This document shows positions 4,856 to 12,580 of a DNA stretch of 64,000 nt, one piece after another. The notes under the pieces are model-generated. The model worked only from the letters and a program-made list of their open reading frames with translations. It ran no database searches and was not told the DNA's origin. Both the position numbers and the translations under genes were made by a program. Positions within the stretch are counted from its first letter, which is position 1. Each line of letters begins with the position of its first letter. The DNA is from Halorubrum lacusprofundi ATCC 49239 (lineage in GTDB: Archaea > Halobacteriota > Halobacteria > Halobacteriales > Haloferacaceae). Location: positions 62,001-126,000 of the forward strand of contig NC_012029.1 of assembly GCF_000022205.1 (NCBI RefSeq), written 5' to 3'.

Positions 4856-5254
4856 TCACACGCTGACGCCTGCGACGACCTCGAGCGACAGCGACACCGC
4901 TAAGACGACCAGACTCGTCGCGAACATCTTCACGTTGCGACTCACCCGCTTCTCGAACGGAATGGTCATCCCACGGAGCGGCGGGAGCTGAGCGAGTCGG
5001 GCTTCAATCTCCCACTCCTGTTCGGTGTCGAAGCTGACACGTTTTCGGTCCCGCCGTTTGGCCTTCGGTTGGATGGCTAACCCGCCGAGGCCGAACAGCG
5101 CGAATCCGACGACGAAGAGGACGTACTTCAGCGTGAGTAGCCCGTCACCGAACGCGTACGCGACCGTGGCGCAAGCCACGACGACGACGGTAGACGCGGC
5201 GCCGACCCAGATGGCGAACTCGCTGATCCGAGCGAAGCTACTCGCTGTCTGCAC
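4856..5254 (-). CDS. Small membrane protein at the end of the dpp operon
   Basis: The 132-residue product has two hydrophobic segments near residues 12-34 and 40-62, a basic cytoplasmic stretch with KAKRRDRKR at about 66-74, an acidic helical loop, and a final hydrophobic segment at about 108-130. Its start overlaps the end of dppF by 17 bases, so it is most likely translated from the dpp transcript. No family function is known to me. A role in the transporter is only an inference from position. Confidence 0.75.
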   Translation of the reverse strand: MQTASSFARISEFAIWVGAASTVVVVACATVAYAFGDGLLTLKYVLFVVGFALFGLGGLAIQPKAKRRDRKRVSFDTEQEWEIEARLAQLPPLRGMTIPFEKRVSRNVKMFATSLVVLAVSLSLEVVAGVSV

Positions 5255-6572
5255 GGCGTGTAATCACGGGCCCCACGTCTTCGTACTCGTCGGTGTGCCG
5301 GTGGCAGTAGCTGTACCGACCTGACGCAGACACTTTGTGCATCTCTGGCGGTTCTCGATCGCAGACACTGGCGAACTCGTCGTAGAGGTGTTCTTGGGCT
5401 TCCGTCGGACGGCCGCGCTTGACCATCTCGACTGCGGTCCGGATCTGTTCGTCAACCCGCTCTGGTACCTCGAGGTCATCGAAGGTGTCCGCCATGCTCT
5501 CCTCGATGTCGTCAAACCGCTCGAACCGGTCGAACCGCCGCCTGACCCGGTCGCTCGTCGAGAGCGTGATACGGGCGCGTTCACGAACGACCTCCCTGAA
5601 CTGTTCAATCGCGTTCCAGAGATCGCTGTCGAGGTTGGCGTACGCCTCCGGTTTAATCTTCGCCGGACAGCGAGTCGAGAGGTTACAGCCCGGCGGCGCG
5701 TCGCTCGGGCTCGGGGGCGTTCCGGAGAGGGTTATCCGACGAGACGTTTCGGTCGGATCGGGTTCCGGAATCGCCGACAACAGCGACTGTGTGTACGGAT
5801 TTGACGCGTCTGTGAACAGCTCTTCGGCCTCGCCCATTTCCATGATCTTCCCGAGGTACATCACGGCGACACGATCGGAGATATACCGAACCACCGAGAG
5901 GTCGTGTGCGATGAGCAGATACGTGAGATTAAACTCCTCTTGGAGGTCTTCGAGGAGACTGATGATCTTCGCCTGGACGCTCACGTCGAGGGCAGAAACC
6001 GGTTCGTCGAGGACCAGGAAGTCCGGCTCGAGCGCGAGCGCTCGTGCGATCCCTATCCGCTGCCGCTGTCCGCCGGAGAACTGGTGTGGGTACCGAAAGT
6101 AGTGTTTGTCGGGGAGACCGACTGCCGACAGTAGATCCAGCACCCGCTCACGCCGATCGTTCATCGTCTTCCAGTCGTGTGCGTCGAGCGGCTCCCGAAT
6201 GATCTCTCCGACCGTCATCCGATCGTTCAGGCTGGACTCGGGGTCTTGGAACACCATCTGGGCGTTCTTGCGCCACTCTTTGAGCTCTGTCCCGGAAAGC
6301 GTCGTGACGTCGGTGCCGTTGTATACGATCGATCCCTCGGTGGCGCGTTCGAGTGCCAGCAGGGTACGGCCGAGCGTGCTCTTCCCGCACCCGGACTCGC
6401 CGACCAGTCCGAGCGTCTCGCCGCGTCTGATCTCGAAGTCGACGCCGTCGACCGCCTTCACCGGCGGATCGGCGAACAGTCCGTCGCCTCCGTAGTACTT
6501 TTTGAGCCCCTCAACTTCCACCAGCACCTCCGACTCCTCAGTCGGACTCGACTGCTCAACTGCGTTGCTCAT
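5238..6572 (-). CDS. dppF: Dipeptide/oligopeptide ABC transporter, second ATPase
   Basis: A 444-residue ATP-binding subunit that works with DppD at the inner face of the membrane to power peptide uptake. Walker A is GESGCGKST (about 58-66), the signature is FSGGQRQRIGIARAL (about 165-179) and Walker B is FLVLDEPVSALD (about 185-196). The oligopeptide-transporter C-terminal region (TGTPPSPSDAPPGC, about 279-292) is present. It is followed by a long haloarchaeal extension of around 110 residues that is helical and charged and ends with conserved HKVSASGRYSYCHRH, a Cys/His cluster seen in this branch. The start ATG shares four bases (ATGA) with the dppD stop, which indicates translational coupling. 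Confidence 0.92.
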   Translation of the reverse strand: MSNAVEQSSPTEESEVLVEVEGLKKYYGGDGLFADPPVKAVDGVDFEIRRGETLGLVGESGCGKSTLGRTLLALERATEGSIVYNGTDVTTLSGTELKEWRKNAQMVFQDPESSLNDRMTVGEIIREPLDAHDWKTMNDRRERVLDLLSAVGLPDKHYFRYPHQFSGGQRQRIGIARALALEPDFLVLDEPVSALDVSVQAKIISLLEDLQEEFNLTYLLIAHDLSVVRYISDRVAVMYLGKIMEMGEAEELFTDASNPYTQSLLSAIPEPDPTETSRRITLSGTPPSPSDAPPGCNLSTRCPAKIKPEAYANLDSDLWNAIEQFREVVRERARITLSTSDRVRRRFDRFERFDDIEESMADTFDDLEVPERVDEQIRTAVEMVKRGRPTEAQEHLYDEFASVCDREPPEMHKVSASGRYSYCHRHTDEYEDVGPVITRRADSE

Positions 6573-7660
6573 GAGTGTTCCTCCGTTCGTTCGGTCGCTC
6601 TCTCGACGTGTCTCTCAACGCGCGCCGTCTCACTCAGGTCGTCGGGGTACAACAGACACGACGCCGTGTGATCCTCGCTGTCCCCGACAGGAACGTGCTG
6701 TGGTGGCACGTTCTCGCAGGCGTCGAACGCCTTCGAACACCGAGGCGCGAACCGACAGTGATCGGCCGGTTCGTTCGGTGTCGGCACCTGCCCCTCGATT
6801 GTTTCGAGCCCGTCCGCACGGGAGTGTTCACCGGGAATGGACCTGAGCAGCGCTCTCGTGTACGGGTGTTGTGGGTTCGCGAACAGATCTTCGACGGTCG
6901 CCTTCTCGACAATCTGTCCCGCGTACATCACGTTCACACGGTTTGCGATGTCCGCGACGACACCCATGTCGTGCGTGATGAACAGTATCGACAGGCCGCG
7001 TTCCTCTTGGAGCTCTTTTAAGAGTTCCAGGATCTGTGCCTGGATCGTCACGTCGAGTGCAGTCGTCGGTTCGTCACAGATCAGAAAGTCCGGGTCACAC
7101 GCGAGCATCATCGCGATGACGGCACGCTGACGCATCCCGCCGGAGAACTCGTGTGGATACTCGTCCAACCGGCGTTTGGCATCCGGAATACCGACGGCCC
7201 GGAGCAGTCTCGTCGCCTCCGTGGTCGCCTTTTCACCCGTGATATCGCGGTTGATTGCAAGCGATTCACGGATCTGGTTGCCGACAGTGTAGACGGGGTT
7301 AAGCGACTGTTGGGGGTCCTGAAAGACCATCCCGATCCCGCTTCCACGGATCGACTGGTACTGTTTCTCCGAGAGGTCTGTGAGTTCCTGTCCGTCGAAG
7401 GAGATCGACGACCCCGGTAGTACCTTGCCGGGCGACTCGATCAACCCCATGATCGAGCGAGCGGTAACGCTTTTGCCCGATCCAGACTCGCCGACAATTC
7501 CCACCGTTTCGCCGCGACCGACGTCGAAACTGATCGAGTCGACCGCTCGGATCGTCTCGTTATCGGTGTAGAAAACCGTCTGGAGGTCTCTCACGGAGAG
7601 GATCGGATCTTCACGGCCCTCCGTCGCTTCCGCGGTTGTGTTCTGTGGTTGAGACATCAC
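6569..7660 (-). CDS. dppD: Dipeptide/oligopeptide ABC transporter, first ATPase
   Basis: A 363-residue ATPase of the peptide importer. Walker A is GESGSGKS (about 54-61), the Q-loop is FQDPQQSLNPVY, the signature FSGGMRQRAVIAM (about 163-175) and Walker B LICDEPTTALD (about 183-193). The C-terminal region (about 285-320) has the Cys-containing CRFAPRCSKAFDAC segment typical of DppD/OppD. Start and stop overlap by four bases with dppC and dppF respectively, so C, D and F are translationally coupled. Confidence 0.93.
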   Translation of the reverse strand: MMSQPQNTTAEATEGREDPILSVRDLQTVFYTDNETIRAVDSISFDVGRGETVGIVGESGSGKSVTARSIMGLIESPGKVLPGSSISFDGQELTDLSEKQYQSIRGSGIGMVFQDPQQSLNPVYTVGNQIRESLAINRDITGEKATTEATRLLRAVGIPDAKRRLDEYPHEFSGGMRQRAVIAMMLACDPDFLICDEPTTALDVTIQAQILELLKELQEERGLSILFITHDMGVVADIANRVNVMYAGQIVEKATVEDLFANPQHPYTRALLRSIPGEHSRADGLETIEGQVPTPNEPADHCRFAPRCSKAFDACENVPPQHVPVGDSEDHTASCLLYPDDLSETARVERHVERATERTEEHS

Positions 7661-9207
7661 GCACCACCTCCTGCGGCCGCCTCTTCACCTTCTCCGCTCT
7701 CGGTCTCCGGATCGATGGCGTCGCGGATCCCGTCACCGAGGGCGTTCATTCCGGTCACGAGGAGCACGATCATCAATCCGGGAATCAGCGAGATGTGCCA
7801 CGAGACCGAAGAGACGTAGCTCTGCCCGGCCGAGATCGCCCGTCCCCAGGCGGGAGTTGGGGGATCTATCCCTAAGCCGTTACCGAGGAAGGACAGCGCC
7901 GAGAGACTGATAATGATCCCCCCCACCGACATCGAGGCGTAGACGAGGAGGTAGCCGAGGATGTAGGGAAGCATGTGCTTTCGCATGATCTTCCGTGGCT
8001 GTTGGCCGTAGCTCTCTGCGGCGCGGACCCACTCCTCCTGTGCGACCTGTAACGCCGGACCACGAACCGCTCGCCACAGGAACGGCCACGTCGTGAACGC
8101 GAAGATGAGCGCCAACAGGAACCCTCCATCGAGTACCCCTCCGAGCCACGTGTCCGCAAAGACCGCACTCACCATGATCAACAACAGCAGCTGTGGAATA
8201 GAGACAACCCCGTCTGAAACCGTGAGGACACCGAGATCGAGCGATCCGCGGTAGTACGCGGATAACATCGACAGCGTCATCGCGACTCCCGCGGCGCCGG
8301 TGATCGCCATCCCTGAGACGATCATCGTGATTCTGGCCCCGCCCATCATGAACGTGAACAGGTCACGACCGTTCGGGAGCGTCCCGAACGGATGGAAGCG
8401 GCTGTAGTCGTCGTACGACATCACCCCGACGTTGGTCTCGACCGCTCCCTTGGACTTCGAGTTGAAGTTGGCGTCGCCGGCGAACACCGTTTCGACGGTT
8501 CCTTCCTCTGATAAGTACTGAATCTGATTCTCCTCGGCGTAGGGACTCTGGATGTTCTGATCGACCGTCGAGGGAGCCAGCGCGGAGCCGAACGTCGCCA
8601 TCGTCAGAAACACGATCAGCACGATGAGTCCGAACTGACCCCACCGGTGGCCGCGGAGGTTATCGACGATGTCGTCCGTGGGAGTCCAGTCGGCCTCGCG
8701 GTAGTGTTCGCGATAGACGAGCCAGCCACGGAACACCCAGTAGGCAGTAAAGAGGGCATACGCGATGATGAGCGAAAACCTGATCGCCCACGCGACCGCC
8801 GGTTGGAGTCCGAGGAAGGTTCCCTGCCACGAGCCATCCGGAGTCTGATGCCCCTGATTCGGGATGAGTTCCCGGCCGAACAGGGTCGGCAACTCTCCAA
8901 GCGTACCTCCCACATCGCGGAGCATACCCACCGCACCGGTCTGGAAGTCGATGACGACCTGTGCGAGTCCGGGTGTGACGTAACTCAATGCAATCTCGAT
9001 AACGGCCGTCACTCCGAGGACCAACGCGTCAAGCATGCCGACCGCGATCCCTGCCCACGTAGCGAACTCGACGGCGATCAACACGAACATCGGAACGGCC
9101 CACCGCAGGAACGGCTCCGGAGTCTCTGTGACGCGAGCAGAGAGCGACAGATTATCACGGTGTGTCAGTTCTTCTCGAATCGACTCGGTGGTATGACGAT
9201 CAGACAT
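7657..9207 (-). CDS. dppC: Dipeptide ABC transporter permease with long N-terminal extension
   Basis: The DppC permease forms one half of the membrane channel. At 516 residues it is about 200 longer than usual (around 300). The conserved core lies in residues about 280-500 and contains the EAA loop (EEWVRAAESYGQQPRKIMRKH, 400s) that contacts the ATPases. The N-terminal 200 residues add three or more extra hydrophobic segments (about 35-90 and 150-175) and an amphipathic loop. The ATG at 9207 (MSDRHTTE) was preferred over one six codons upstream at 9225, because it begins one base after the dppB stop and gives a normal acidic N-terminus. Confidence 0.9.
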   Translation of the reverse strand: MSDRHTTESIREELTHRDNLSLSARVTETPEPFLRWAVPMFVLIAVEFATWAGIAVGMLDALVLGVTAVIEIALSYVTPGLAQVVIDFQTGAVGMLRDVGGTLGELPTLFGRELIPNQGHQTPDGSWQGTFLGLQPAVAWAIRFSLIIAYALFTAYWVFRGWLVYREHYREADWTPTDDIVDNLRGHRWGQFGLIVLIVFLTMATFGSALAPSTVDQNIQSPYAEENQIQYLSEEGTVETVFAGDANFNSKSKGAVETNVGVMSYDDYSRFHPFGTLPNGRDLFTFMMGGARITMIVSGMAITGAAGVAMTLSMLSAYYRGSLDLGVLTVSDGVVSIPQLLLLIMVSAVFADTWLGGVLDGGFLLALIFAFTTWPFLWRAVRGPALQVAQEEWVRAAESYGQQPRKIMRKHMLPYILGYLLVYASMSVGGIIISLSALSFLGNGLGIDPPTPAWGRAISAGQSYVSSVSWHISLIPGLMIVLLVTGMNALGDGIRDAIDPETESGEGEEAAAGGGA

Positions 9208-9208
9208 G

Positions 9209-10297
9209 TTACTCACTCTCTCCAAGGCTGATTCGCGGATCGATGTACGTATACAGGAGGTCTTGGCCGATGTTGAACAGGATCTGGATCACGATGAAAA
9301 TGAACACGAGTGCCATCACGAGCGGGATATCGGGCCCCAACACCGCGTTGAAAAAGAGGTTGCCGAGGCCGTTGATACCGAAGACCGCCTCAACGAGGAC
9401 GGACCCGCCGACCAACAGGTAGAACTCGCCCATGATGACGGGCAAAAGCGGGATGACCGCGTTCCGTCCGACGTGTTTGACGATGATCCGACGGGGAGAG
9501 AGCCCCTTCGCCTTCGCGGTCTCGACGTACTTTGAGTTGATGCTCTCGAGCACTGCGGTCCGTCCGATTCTGACCTCGTTACCCATCGATGACGACCCGA
9601 GAACGAGCGCGGCGGGCAGTATCCACTTGAACGCGACGAACATCGGACCGAGATTGGGCACCGGAATGAACAACAGCTCCAGATACGGGACACCGGCGAA
9701 GATATCGACGGTGGTGAACAGGTTGTTCAGCGCGTCGGGGGTTCCACTGACCGGTGTTTCGACGATCGCAGTGCGATAGAACTCGAGGGCGCCTCCAGCG
9801 GTGATCAGTCCGGAGATGATGACGGCAAGCCAGAAGTTCGGCATCGCGCGCCAGACGATCCCGAACCCGGAGGCCGTGTAATCTCGGAGTGTATTCGCGC
9901 GCAGGCCGGCGTACAGTCCGAGCGGGACGCCGGCCCCGAGTGCGATGATGACTGACCAGAAGCCGAGCCACAGCGTCGCGGGCATCCGGTTGATGATGAG
10001 CTCGGTGACGGGCGTCTCACGCTGAATCGTCCACGATTCTCCGAAATCGAGCGTGAACAGGTCGCTGACGACTCCGAAATACTGCTCCCACAGGGGAACG
10101 GGGTTTCCGGCTGCATCGATGTAGTTCAGTTCCATCCGGAGCTGTCGGATGTCCTCGGGTGTCGCCTGCTGACCGAGGATGCTCCCGACGGGATCTATCG
10201 GGCCGAGATAGAGGATCAAAAACGACATCGTGATCCCGAACATCATGACCGGAACCGCGAGTCCGAGCCGCTTGATTATGTAGGCGCCTCGGTTCAT
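9209..10297 (-). CDS. dppB: Dipeptide/oligopeptide ABC transporter permease
   Basis: The 362-residue membrane subunit pairs with DppC. The N-terminal segment RGAYIIKRLGLAVPVMMFGI is the usual DppB start, with a first membrane helix at about 12-32 followed by an outside loop (about 40-100). Five more membrane helices follow, with the EAA loop YVETAKAKGLSPRRIIVKH at about 255-273. The dppC start follows almost without gap. The intergenic distance to dppA upstream is about 270 bases (10298-10569), larger than elsewhere in the operon, so an extra promoter or processing site may lie there. Confidence 0.92.
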   Translation of the reverse strand: MNRGAYIIKRLGLAVPVMMFGITMSFLILYLGPIDPVGSILGQQATPEDIRQLRMELNYIDAAGNPVPLWEQYFGVVSDLFTLDFGESWTIQRETPVTELIINRMPATLWLGFWSVIIALGAGVPLGLYAGLRANTLRDYTASGFGIVWRAMPNFWLAVIISGLITAGGALEFYRTAIVETPVSGTPDALNNLFTTVDIFAGVPYLELLFIPVPNLGPMFVAFKWILPAALVLGSSSMGNEVRIGRTAVLESINSKYVETAKAKGLSPRRIIVKHVGRNAVIPLLPVIMGEFYLLVGGSVLVEAVFGINGLGNLFFNAVLGPDIPLVMALVFIFIVIQILFNIGQDLLYTYIDPRISLGESE

Positions 10298-10569: not shown

Positions 10570-12471
10570 TTATTCGCCCTGCCAGTGGTCGGCGTACCCC
10601 TCACCGCCGCCGGGGAAGATCTGTGGCGGCGTGAGGTGGTACGCGGACTCGCCACGACCCTTGAAGACGCTCTCGGTGAAGTCGTCGCCCGTCATCACGT
10701 ACGCCATCGCCTGTCGGACCGGCTTGGGGACGTTCTCCATGTTGAACGCGATGTAGAACGTGTCGATCGTCGGCGTCCGCGACATGTTGACCGTCTGGTC
10801 GTTCCCGAGCGGACCGTACGTTCCGGTCTGTTGGGCGCCGTCCTGACTCGTCAGGTCGCTCAGTCCGGGATCGAACTGCGAGGTCGGGATCGCACTGACG
10901 TCCGCGTTCTCGTTGAGGAACCGGTTGTATATCGCGTTCGGCTCGCTGAGGATCGCGTCCTGGATGTTCGCGGCGGCCGGCTCTCCGCCGTGGTAGTCCG
11001 TGAACGCCGAGGCTCGGAACTCTCCGCCGACACCGGAGTTCCACTCCTCGAAGACGTACGGACCACAGCCGACCGGGTTCGTCGAGAACTGCTGGTAATC
11101 CATGTCGCCGTCGTATCCCTCGACGTCGCCCACGATACCCTCGGGGACGGCCGAGAACGCCGAGTAACTGAGCACTTCGAGCGCGTAGCCGAACGAATTG
11201 CGGAGCGTGACGCTGAAGGTGTAGTCGCCGGTCGCCTCGACGGCAACCGATCCGGGCACGACGTTGCCATCCTCGTCCTCCTCGCGGTCGATGTTCAGGA
11301 CGCTGATCGGGAAGTACGTGTTCGTCGAGTTCGAGGATTCGACCAGACGCCGGATCGAGTAGACCATATCGTCCGCCGTCAGTTCGCCGTAATCCCCGTG
11401 GAACTGGACGCCCTGCTTGAGCGTGAACTCGTACTCGGTGAGGTCGTCGTTCGTGGTGTAGTCCTCGATCAGAAGCGGCTCGACCTCGACCGTTCCGTTG
11501 ACGTAGTTGAGCGGTGCGTCGAATATGTCCATGACCTTCGAACCACTCGCCGTGTTCCCCGACGCGATCGGGTCGAGTGCGTTGAAGGTCGCGGACGTGC
11601 CCTTCAGCGTGTCGCTGCCTTCGAGTCCCTGGACGGACGTGCTGGTCTTCGCCCGGGACACTCCCATCCCGCCCGGCGGATTGTAGTCGACCCGGTCGTA
11701 CCAGAACACGTCTTCGACGCTGTGATACACCGGGAGCAACGCCGCGGACTCCCAGAGGAGCTTCTCCAACCGAAGCGTCGCCTCCGCGCGTGCGCTCTCC
11801 GCCTCGTCCTTGTTGCCCGGATTCTCCGAAAGCTGCGCGAACGCCTCTGACATCGCGCTGCGGACTTCGGGGTCGGTGTAGGAATCTTCGCTCCAGAACA
11901 GCCGCGCACCGTTCGGCGAAGCCCCTTCGGCGTCGTAGATCGTGTTATCCGGATCGACCAGCTGAGCGAAGTTCCTGACACCCGGGTAATCCGCGATCCA
12001 GCCGAGCGTGAACGCGTCCATCTCGCCCTTTTCGGTCCGCTCGAGGAGGGCGCCGAAGTCGGCCTTGCTGATGTTCATATCGACGTGGACCGACTCGAGG
12101 CGGGCACGAAGCGTATTCGCAATCTCCTCCCACGCCGGGGAGTTGTACTGGAGCCAATCGAGGCTGAATCGGTTGTCAGGGCCGTATCCGGCCTCTTCCA
12201 TAACCGCTCGAGCCTCACTGATCCGATTTTCGTTAGCCCCGTACGGGTACGACGACGGCATCAACTGGTCGGATCCGTCCTCGCCGTCGGATCCGTCCTC
12301 GCCGTCGGATCCGTCTTCGCTGTCGGATCCGTCCTCGCCGTCGGAGCCGTCGCCCCCATCGCTGGGTTCGCCGCCGCTGTCTCCGGAACAACCTGCGATG
12401 CCGGCGGTGAGTGCCGACGCTCCGGTCACTCGGAGGAACTGACGCCGCCTGAGTTCGTCTTTATCAGACAT
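10570..12471 (-). CDS. dppA: Peptide-binding lipoprotein DppA with circularly permuted domains
   Basis: A 633-residue SBP_bac_5 family substrate-binding lipoprotein. It has a twin-arginine motif RRRQF (8-12), a lipobox ending IAGC with Cys28, then an Asp/Gly/Ser linker (29-68) built from GSDGED repeats. The family order is then reversed. Residues about 69-284 (11620-12267) match the usual C-terminal half: EARAVMEEAGYG, IANTLRARLESVHVDM, FTLGWIADYPG, ALLPVYHSVED, ending YNPPGGMG. Residues about 285-633 (10570-11619) match the usual N-terminal half: NALDPIASGNTASG, EYEFTLKQGVQFHGDYGELT, GCGPYVFEEW, VPKPVRQAMAYVMTGDDF, and they end at the point (GYADHWQGE) where a normal protein would continue into the other half. 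The reading frame is intact. The ATG at 12471 (MSDKDE) was chosen over one at 12492. It is expected to deliver peptides to DppBCDF. Confidence 0.92.
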   Translation of the reverse strand: MSDKDELRRRQFLRVTGASALTAGIAGCSGDSGGEPSDGGDGSDGEDGSDSEDGSDGEDGSDGEDGSDQLMPSSYPYGANENRISEARAVMEEAGYGPDNRFSLDWLQYNSPAWEEIANTLRARLESVHVDMNISKADFGALLERTEKGEMDAFTLGWIADYPGVRNFAQLVDPDNTIYDAEGASPNGARLFWSEDSYTDPEVRSAMSEAFAQLSENPGNKDEAESARAEATLRLEKLLWESAALLPVYHSVEDVFWYDRVDYNPPGGMGVSRAKTSTSVQGLEGSDTLKGTSATFNALDPIASGNTASGSKVMDIFDAPLNYVNGTVEVEPLLIEDYTTNDDLTEYEFTLKQGVQFHGDYGELTADDMVYSIRRLVESSNSTNTYFPISVLNIDREEDEDGNVVPGSVAVEATGDYTFSVTLRNSFGYALEVLSYSAFSAVPEGIVGDVEGYDGDMDYQQFSTNPVGCGPYVFEEWNSGVGGEFRASAFTDYHGGEPAAANIQDAILSEPNAIYNRFLNENADVSAIPTSQFDPGLSDLTSQDGAQQTGTYGPLGNDQTVNMSRTPTIDTFYIAFNMENVPKPVRQAMAYVMTGDDFTESVFKGRGESAYHLTPPQIFPGGGEGYADHWQGE

Positions 12472-12580
12472 ACGGTGTACCCTTTTGATCACGACAATTA
12501 ACCCTTTGCATATACTGTTGATTAGTAGTGATCCGCCTCATCGGACCGGTGCTTTCATCGGTTCCGGGGGTGTCAGCCCT

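Follow-up and report, generated by a model that had tools for sequence, protein, structure and literature searches.

A DppA-type substrate-binding lipoprotein gene of Halorubrum lacusprofundi with exchanged halves, and the recurrence of such permutations in its family

The operon and the order of the halves

The window (the whole 64,000-nucleotide stretch of DNA analysed) carries on its minus strand an intact dppBCDF-type operon, headed by a gene for a substrate-binding lipoprotein (Table 1). The frame of this gene is open from a GTG at 12492 to the stop at 10570, and its product (P0001, 640 residues) was numbered from the GTG; the in-frame ATG at 12471 is more likely to be the true start, since the orthologues begin at the same MSDKD/MSEQD. 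The signal peptide is still N-terminal in the permuted protein, with a weak match to TAT_signal (E 0.075, below the Pfam cut-off), and the linker which follows it gave only a Collagen-like low-complexity match in Pfam.

Table 1. Features of the window locus, and further SBP_bac_5 genes found in the same genome
Feature	Coordinates	Strand	Position in proteins	Basis
Circularly permuted SBP_bac_5 (DppA-like) substrate-binding lipoprotein gene	10570..12471	-		sequence, HMM, orthologues
Signal peptide, twin-Arg-like RRRQF start, lipobox ...GIAGC	12388..12471	-	P0001 8-35	sequence, kept in orthologues
Asp/Gly/Ser-rich repetitive linker from lipobox to folded part	12265..12387	-	P0001 36-76	sequence
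Family C-terminal half, placed first	11644..12267	-	P0001 ~76-283; canonical DppA ~330 onwards	
Family N-terminal half, placed second	10573..11643	-	P0001 ~284-640; canonical DppA ~19-315	
dppB-like permease (BPD_transp_1), downstream of the window gene	9209..10297	-		Pfam PF00528, E 1.8e-31
dppC-like permease (BPD_transp_1 + OppC_N)	7657..9225	-		Pfam
dppD-like ATPase (ABC_tran + oligo_HPY)	6569..7660	-		Pfam
dppF-like second ATPase, Walker A GESGCGKST, ABC signature FSGGQRQR	5238..6572	-		read from sequence, no Pfam scan
Permuted gene, same genome	L009:2750-4744			
Permuted gene, same genome	L010:2442-4409			
Permuted gene, same genome	L011:10589-12271			
Canonical gene, same genome	L011:1494-3473			
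Canonical gene, same genome	L012:2549-4336			

P0001 matches PF00496 with an E-value of 3.2e-51, and the whole-protein score of 175 bits meets the curated cut-off of 32.4. The match is not co-linear over the length of the profile; it consists of two out-of-order stretches, with profile positions 246-359 matching N-terminal of positions 1-260, and proteins of the window type were therefore classed as a permuted form of SBP_bac_5. A phmmer comparison with E. coli DppA (1dpp, E 7e-18) gave the same order, with query residues 309-626 corresponding to chain 19-315 and query residues 93-175 to chain 330-415. When P0001 was un-rotated, its best single-domain score against the haloarchaeal canonical HMM rose from 124.3 to 182.3 bits. 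The half placed first contains the motifs ARxVMEEAGYGPDN and LLPVYHSVEDVFWYDRVDYNPP, while the half placed second contains FNALDPIASGNT, EYEFTLKQGVQFH and PVRQAMAYVMTGDD and ends with YADHWQGE directly before the stop.

Aligned separately, as had been proposed as a check, both halves fit the same canonical relatives, which they tile end to end without loss: the N-half corresponds to L163 46-389 (48% identity) and the C-half to L163 386-583 (40%). At the cut, the canonical ...DQHAQQ/NYPYGYNETQ... corresponds in the window protein to ...YADHWQGE with its stop on one side and to SSYPYGANENR... on the other, and the residue-level junction runs from canonical ...DQHAQQ/NYPYGYNETQLQQARQVMEEAGYGPNN... 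to ...YADHWQGE-stop and ...SSYPYGANENRISEARAVMEEAGYGPDN... in the window gene. Both blocks are homologous to the family and their order is exchanged, as is required of a natural circular permutant. The window gene encodes an SBP_bac_5 cluster-C lipoprotein with the fold-coding halves exchanged and the signal, lipobox and linker in place. The swapped order claimed in the first-pass annotation was thus borne out by the out-of-order PF00496 and 1dpp stretches and by the un-rotation, and the half boundaries given there (69-284 and 285-633, numbered from the ATG) were right within a few residues.

The protein resembles cluster C (DppA, OppA and NikA; PF00496) in the strong match of both halves and in being a lipoprotein encoded beside dppBCDF-type genes, and the gene context expected of that cluster, two permeases and ABC ATPases adjacent, is present at the locus; it differs in the exchanged half order. 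The family and the operon suggest that the window protein binds peptides or similar solutes and passes them to the adjacent importer, an assignment for which there are no binding, transport or expression data. We are confident, short of certainty, that the window gene is a functional, naturally permuted cluster-C lipoprotein working with the adjacent dppBCDF genes in peptide-type uptake. In DppA/OppA structures one lobe holds both of the old termini, near each other, and by analogy the cuts of classes A, B and C described below would lie in the other lobe. Because the old N- and C-termini of the family adjoin each other, the permuted chain was inferred to fold to the usual bilobed structure, and the membrane tether was inferred to leave the lobe that contains these termini for a loop elsewhere; given the lobes in which the termini and the cuts lie, it would attach to a different lobe. 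An AlphaFold2 prediction for P0001, based on an alignment of only four sequences (the window protein and three related loci), gave a pLDDT of 27.5.

Conservation and distribution of permuted genes

Orthologues of Halorubrum distributum, Halonotius pteroides and one Halorubrum MAG have the same half order, and full-length matches with this order at 57-87% identity were found in 19 further haloarchaeal genomes (families f1, f4 and f12), so that the suggested search for orthologues with the same order returned about 20 full-length ones in that range. Compared with two orthologues, the window gene has a dN/dS of 0.19 and 0.15; among other permuted genes the ratio was 0.15-0.21 for two Halorubrum genes and 0.05 in Archaeoglobus. 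The permuted order is conserved in the orthologues and is under purifying selection, as expected of a conserved and selected arrangement and not of an artefact.

Misassembly or a scrambled contig at the window locus, which had been named as the main alternative, is possible a priori for any single genome, and the linker DNA is repetitive. However, about 20 other genomes from several families carry the same order at 57-87% identity, the permutation of the gene at L010 is common to 19 Halorubrum genomes, the window gene is in-frame and under purifying selection, and an independent permuted case lies on a single-contig Archaeoglobus genome of 2,178,400 bp. Since many independent, divergent genomes carry the same order, misassembly is excluded for practical purposes. 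A decaying gene or a non-functional rearrangement has nothing in its favour except the odd order, and is opposed by the open frame, the conserved motifs, the dN/dS of 0.15-0.19, the intact operon and the wide conservation, which leave it scarcely any room. The claim of a true permutation in a working gene is in turn supported by the orthologue order, the purifying selection and the intact dppBCDF operon, without transport data.

In the genome of the window, four of the six SBP_bac_5 genes found are permuted, with three cut points (Table 1). Among the SBP_bac_1 matches listed for this genome there were no out-of-order pairs, and permutation is therefore not common to all binding-protein families there. 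The order of the halves was read with a 512-position HMM built from 16 canonical haloarchaeal proteins, in proteins from about 40 genomes and then more, and the labels of L089, L071, L076 and L083 were set by pairwise comparison. Four cut positions were identified in the coordinates of the canonical HMM: A at ~325/340, B at ~352/356, C at ~425-450 and D at ~85. In class C only the last-strand region is moved to the front, and in class D only the first ~85 positions are moved to the end (L029). Far from being a unique oddity, the window gene belongs to a large set of recurrent permutations with four cut positions or more.

Several individual genes were recorded in the course of this survey. In two class C genes (L011:10589-12271 and L064:10974-13364), the family's last ~60 residues stand directly after the lipoprotein linker. 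The class D gene (L029:1907-3811, genome G036) is permuted the opposite way round from most, and was confirmed against L093 (E 4e-19); L087 was rejected as a class D member, as the call rested on a trivial repeat match. Two permuted SBP_bac_5 genes lie near each other on the same strand, as tandem paralogues, at L043 (2551-4329 and 5349-7163) and likewise at L192 (1456-3234 and 4217-6028), a setting which could feed further rearrangement.

A junction profile from 27 permuted proteins was searched against 148 genomes of the phylum. Among the matches listed, spanning (permuted) matches were present in at least 15 of the 22 genomes of the window's taxonomic order having any match, and outside that order only in three genomes, namely G493 and G501, which are permuted (L176 and L177), and G482, which carries a tandem fusion (L178). 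No related loci were found in viral contigs. The survey of half order was limited to archaea; bacteria were left out, and tblastn matches on bacterial plasmids were not checked for order beyond being listed.

Number, recency and possible route of the permutations

A maximum-likelihood tree was built from 136 un-rotated homologues, on which the labels changed 12 times under a two-state scheme (permuted or canonical) and 15 times under a five-state scheme, and for the canonical label the starred branches force 10 changes or more. A single clade of all permuted rows was rejected (p-AU 1.8e-65), and so were a single clade of all class B rows (p-AU 4e-135) and a single clade of both permuted groups of the L010 family (p-AU 8e-5). 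The window gene falls in a well-supported permuted clade of 24 rows (SH-aLRT 99), which neighbours the class C clade; the two lie among canonical relatives. The permutation arose separately about ten times in the family, in haloarchaea and once in Archaeoglobus; the figure of about ten is an estimate of events and not of gains, since some of the changes on the tree may be reversals. One gene of canonical order (L089:1688-4105, G020) groups either within the class C clade or next to it, with 61-67% identity, and may be either the sister of the class C event or a reversal.

Two of the events are recent enough for both orders to be compared within one genus. In Halorubrum, residues 331-655 of L010 correspond to residues 62-386 of the canonical L051 (72% identity) and residues 87-323 to residues 387-628 (69%), with no sequence lost or duplicated; the flanks are collinear on both sides and 71-83% identical, and because the flanking genes are collinear on both sides the change happened in place. 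The permuted orthologue (one span) is present in 19 Halorubrum genomes and the canonical one (two abutting spans) in about 15. In Archaeoglobus, a DppA-type protein was observed to be permuted in two genomes (L176:1240-2811 and L177:1124-2686) and canonical in a third (L195), at 83-86% identity to the permuted form. Residues 196-520 of L177, from a genome (G501) which we take to be very probably A. fulgidus, correspond to L195 29-353 (86%), and residues 30-192 to L195 353-515 (83%), with 79% identity at the DNA level; synteny of the two loci was not visible within the fetched stretch. By eye and without statistics, similar short words were noted in the Archaeoglobus linker (GAGGAAAAAGC), in the loop where the cut lies (GAGGACAACAAGC) and at the gene's 3' terminus (TACGAGG), which is no more than suggestive as to mechanism.

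Permutation by duplication and fusion followed by a new start and stop is the classical model (PMC3320104). Applied to this family, we infer that an in-frame tandem duplication would have brought the gene's own linker in behind its 3' end (signal-linker-N-C-N-C), that the first N-half would then have been lost and the linker joined to the C-half, and that the last C-half would have been truncated by a stop at the same loop. A 1011-aa in-frame head-to-tail fusion of two complete SBP_bac_5 domains was found in the same phylum in another class (L178:855-3890, G482); it matches HMM positions 62-498 and then 63-506 (N-C-N-C), with no signal peptide in the second copy. It is the intermediate predicted by duplication followed by trimming, and shows that such a form can exist in the family. 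No duplicated intermediate was found inside any permuted clade, and L178 comes from a different lineage than any permuted gene. In some permuted proteins (e.g., L009, L056 and L061) a linker-like D/G-rich sequence stands between the C-half and the N-half, which fits the linker of a second copy. The complementary cuts, the kept signal and linker, the linker between the halves and L178 all fit duplication with trimming at both ends. The duplication-deletion type of event suggested at first reading accordingly gains support from the exact complementary cuts in the fresh sister pairs and from the L178 fusion, and duplication followed by trimming is supported, not proven.

The main rival to duplication is direct cut-and-paste, in which the DNA of the C-half moved from the 3' end to the linker in one step without a duplicated intermediate. 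Such a move would yield exact complementary cuts without leftover, and the linker repeats might attract recombination; however, the original end would have had to meet an in-frame stop by chance, the family includes the L178 tandem fusion, and the D/G-rich stretch between the halves fits the linker of a second copy, so that we regard it as unlikely. Under fission and fusion, the halves would first have been separate genes, or derived from two parents, and would have been joined afterwards in the opposite order; of the two standard models for how circular permutations arise, this is one (PMC3320104). It is less likely still, since the canonical relatives matched by one half are also those matched by the other, with similar identities (72/69, 86/83 and 64/64%, and 48/40% for the window gene), the recent events occurred in place between the same neighbours, and split half-genes were not noticed, in the absence of a specific search; as both halves have the same closest relatives, fusion from different parents in particular is unlikely. 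The duplication route is the one proposed for saposin/swaposin and the DNA methyltransferases (PMC3320104), from which the present case differs in that the permutation affects the folded part alone, the start of the protein (signal, lipobox and linker) staying in place, and in that the event was repeated about ten times in one family.

Relation to known permuted binding proteins

TpMglB-2 (Tp0684) is a circularly permuted glucose-binding lipoprotein, assigned to 'Type Ic / Cluster Bc', in which glucose binding and closure are retained; in its authors' view, the permutation may be an adaptation to tethering (PMC4990184). The likeness lies in a natural permutation of a tethered ABC-importer binding protein, with ligand binding retained in TpMglB-2; the latter differs in being a cluster B (type I) sugar binder, with 13% identity of the permuted part to its counterpart, and in reflecting one old event without a close canonical sister, recurrence or a readable cut. 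Membership of the window protein in Cluster Bc was rejected, as its sequence groups with PF00496 and DppA. Since tethering is typical of archaeal binding proteins, the tethering idea would apply to them as well, as an untested idea. A permutation family of glycine betaine-binding and molybdate-binding proteins, found by CPSARST (PMC2395249), is also an example of circular permutation among substrate-binding proteins; it differs in having been found by structure at <24% identity, and in being ancient and in different clusters.

In the literature searched, which left out most subscription papers, no report of permuted cluster-C proteins or of such recurrence was found. None of the 58 PDB sequences matching L177 at E<=1e-20 is a permuted cluster-C structure, all aligning piecewise as canonical-order chains, and no dedicated model for the permuted form was among the NCBIfam matches. 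The belief that this order had not been described therefore holds for cluster C as far as searched, but not for the other substrate-binding clusters (PMC4990184, PMC2395249). What seems to be new here is permutation in cluster C, which is also unusual in how often and how recently it occurred.

As a rule, natural circular permutations are regarded as ancient one-off events, inferred by comparing structures of low identity. This family has undergone about ten independent events. Two are of such recent date that both orders share a genus (69-86% identity), and one of the two, in Halorubrum, is at the same gene position, so that comparison of breakpoints makes the origin of permutations (duplication, fission-fusion or cut-and-paste) directly testable. 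We propose, as a tentative reading which the evidence does not yet favour outright, that tethered archaeal cluster-C proteins often evolve by permutation, possibly as an adaptation. They would be re-cut repeatedly at a few permitted loops, so that the anchor sits on another lobe with respect to the permease, and the likely route would be an in-frame tandem duplication driven by the linker and followed by trimming. The natural matched pairs could be used to ask whether moving the tether alters docking to the ABC permease, ligand affinity, folding or export. Order-aware domain searches miss or truncate the permuted proteins, and the annotation of haloarchaeal transporters is therefore affected.

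A possibly different form of anchoring was noted by eye in one SBP_bac_5 protein (L094:1737-4091, G029), whose C-terminal part has a PKD-like repeat region and perhaps a transmembrane anchor, in place of the usual N-terminal lipobox.
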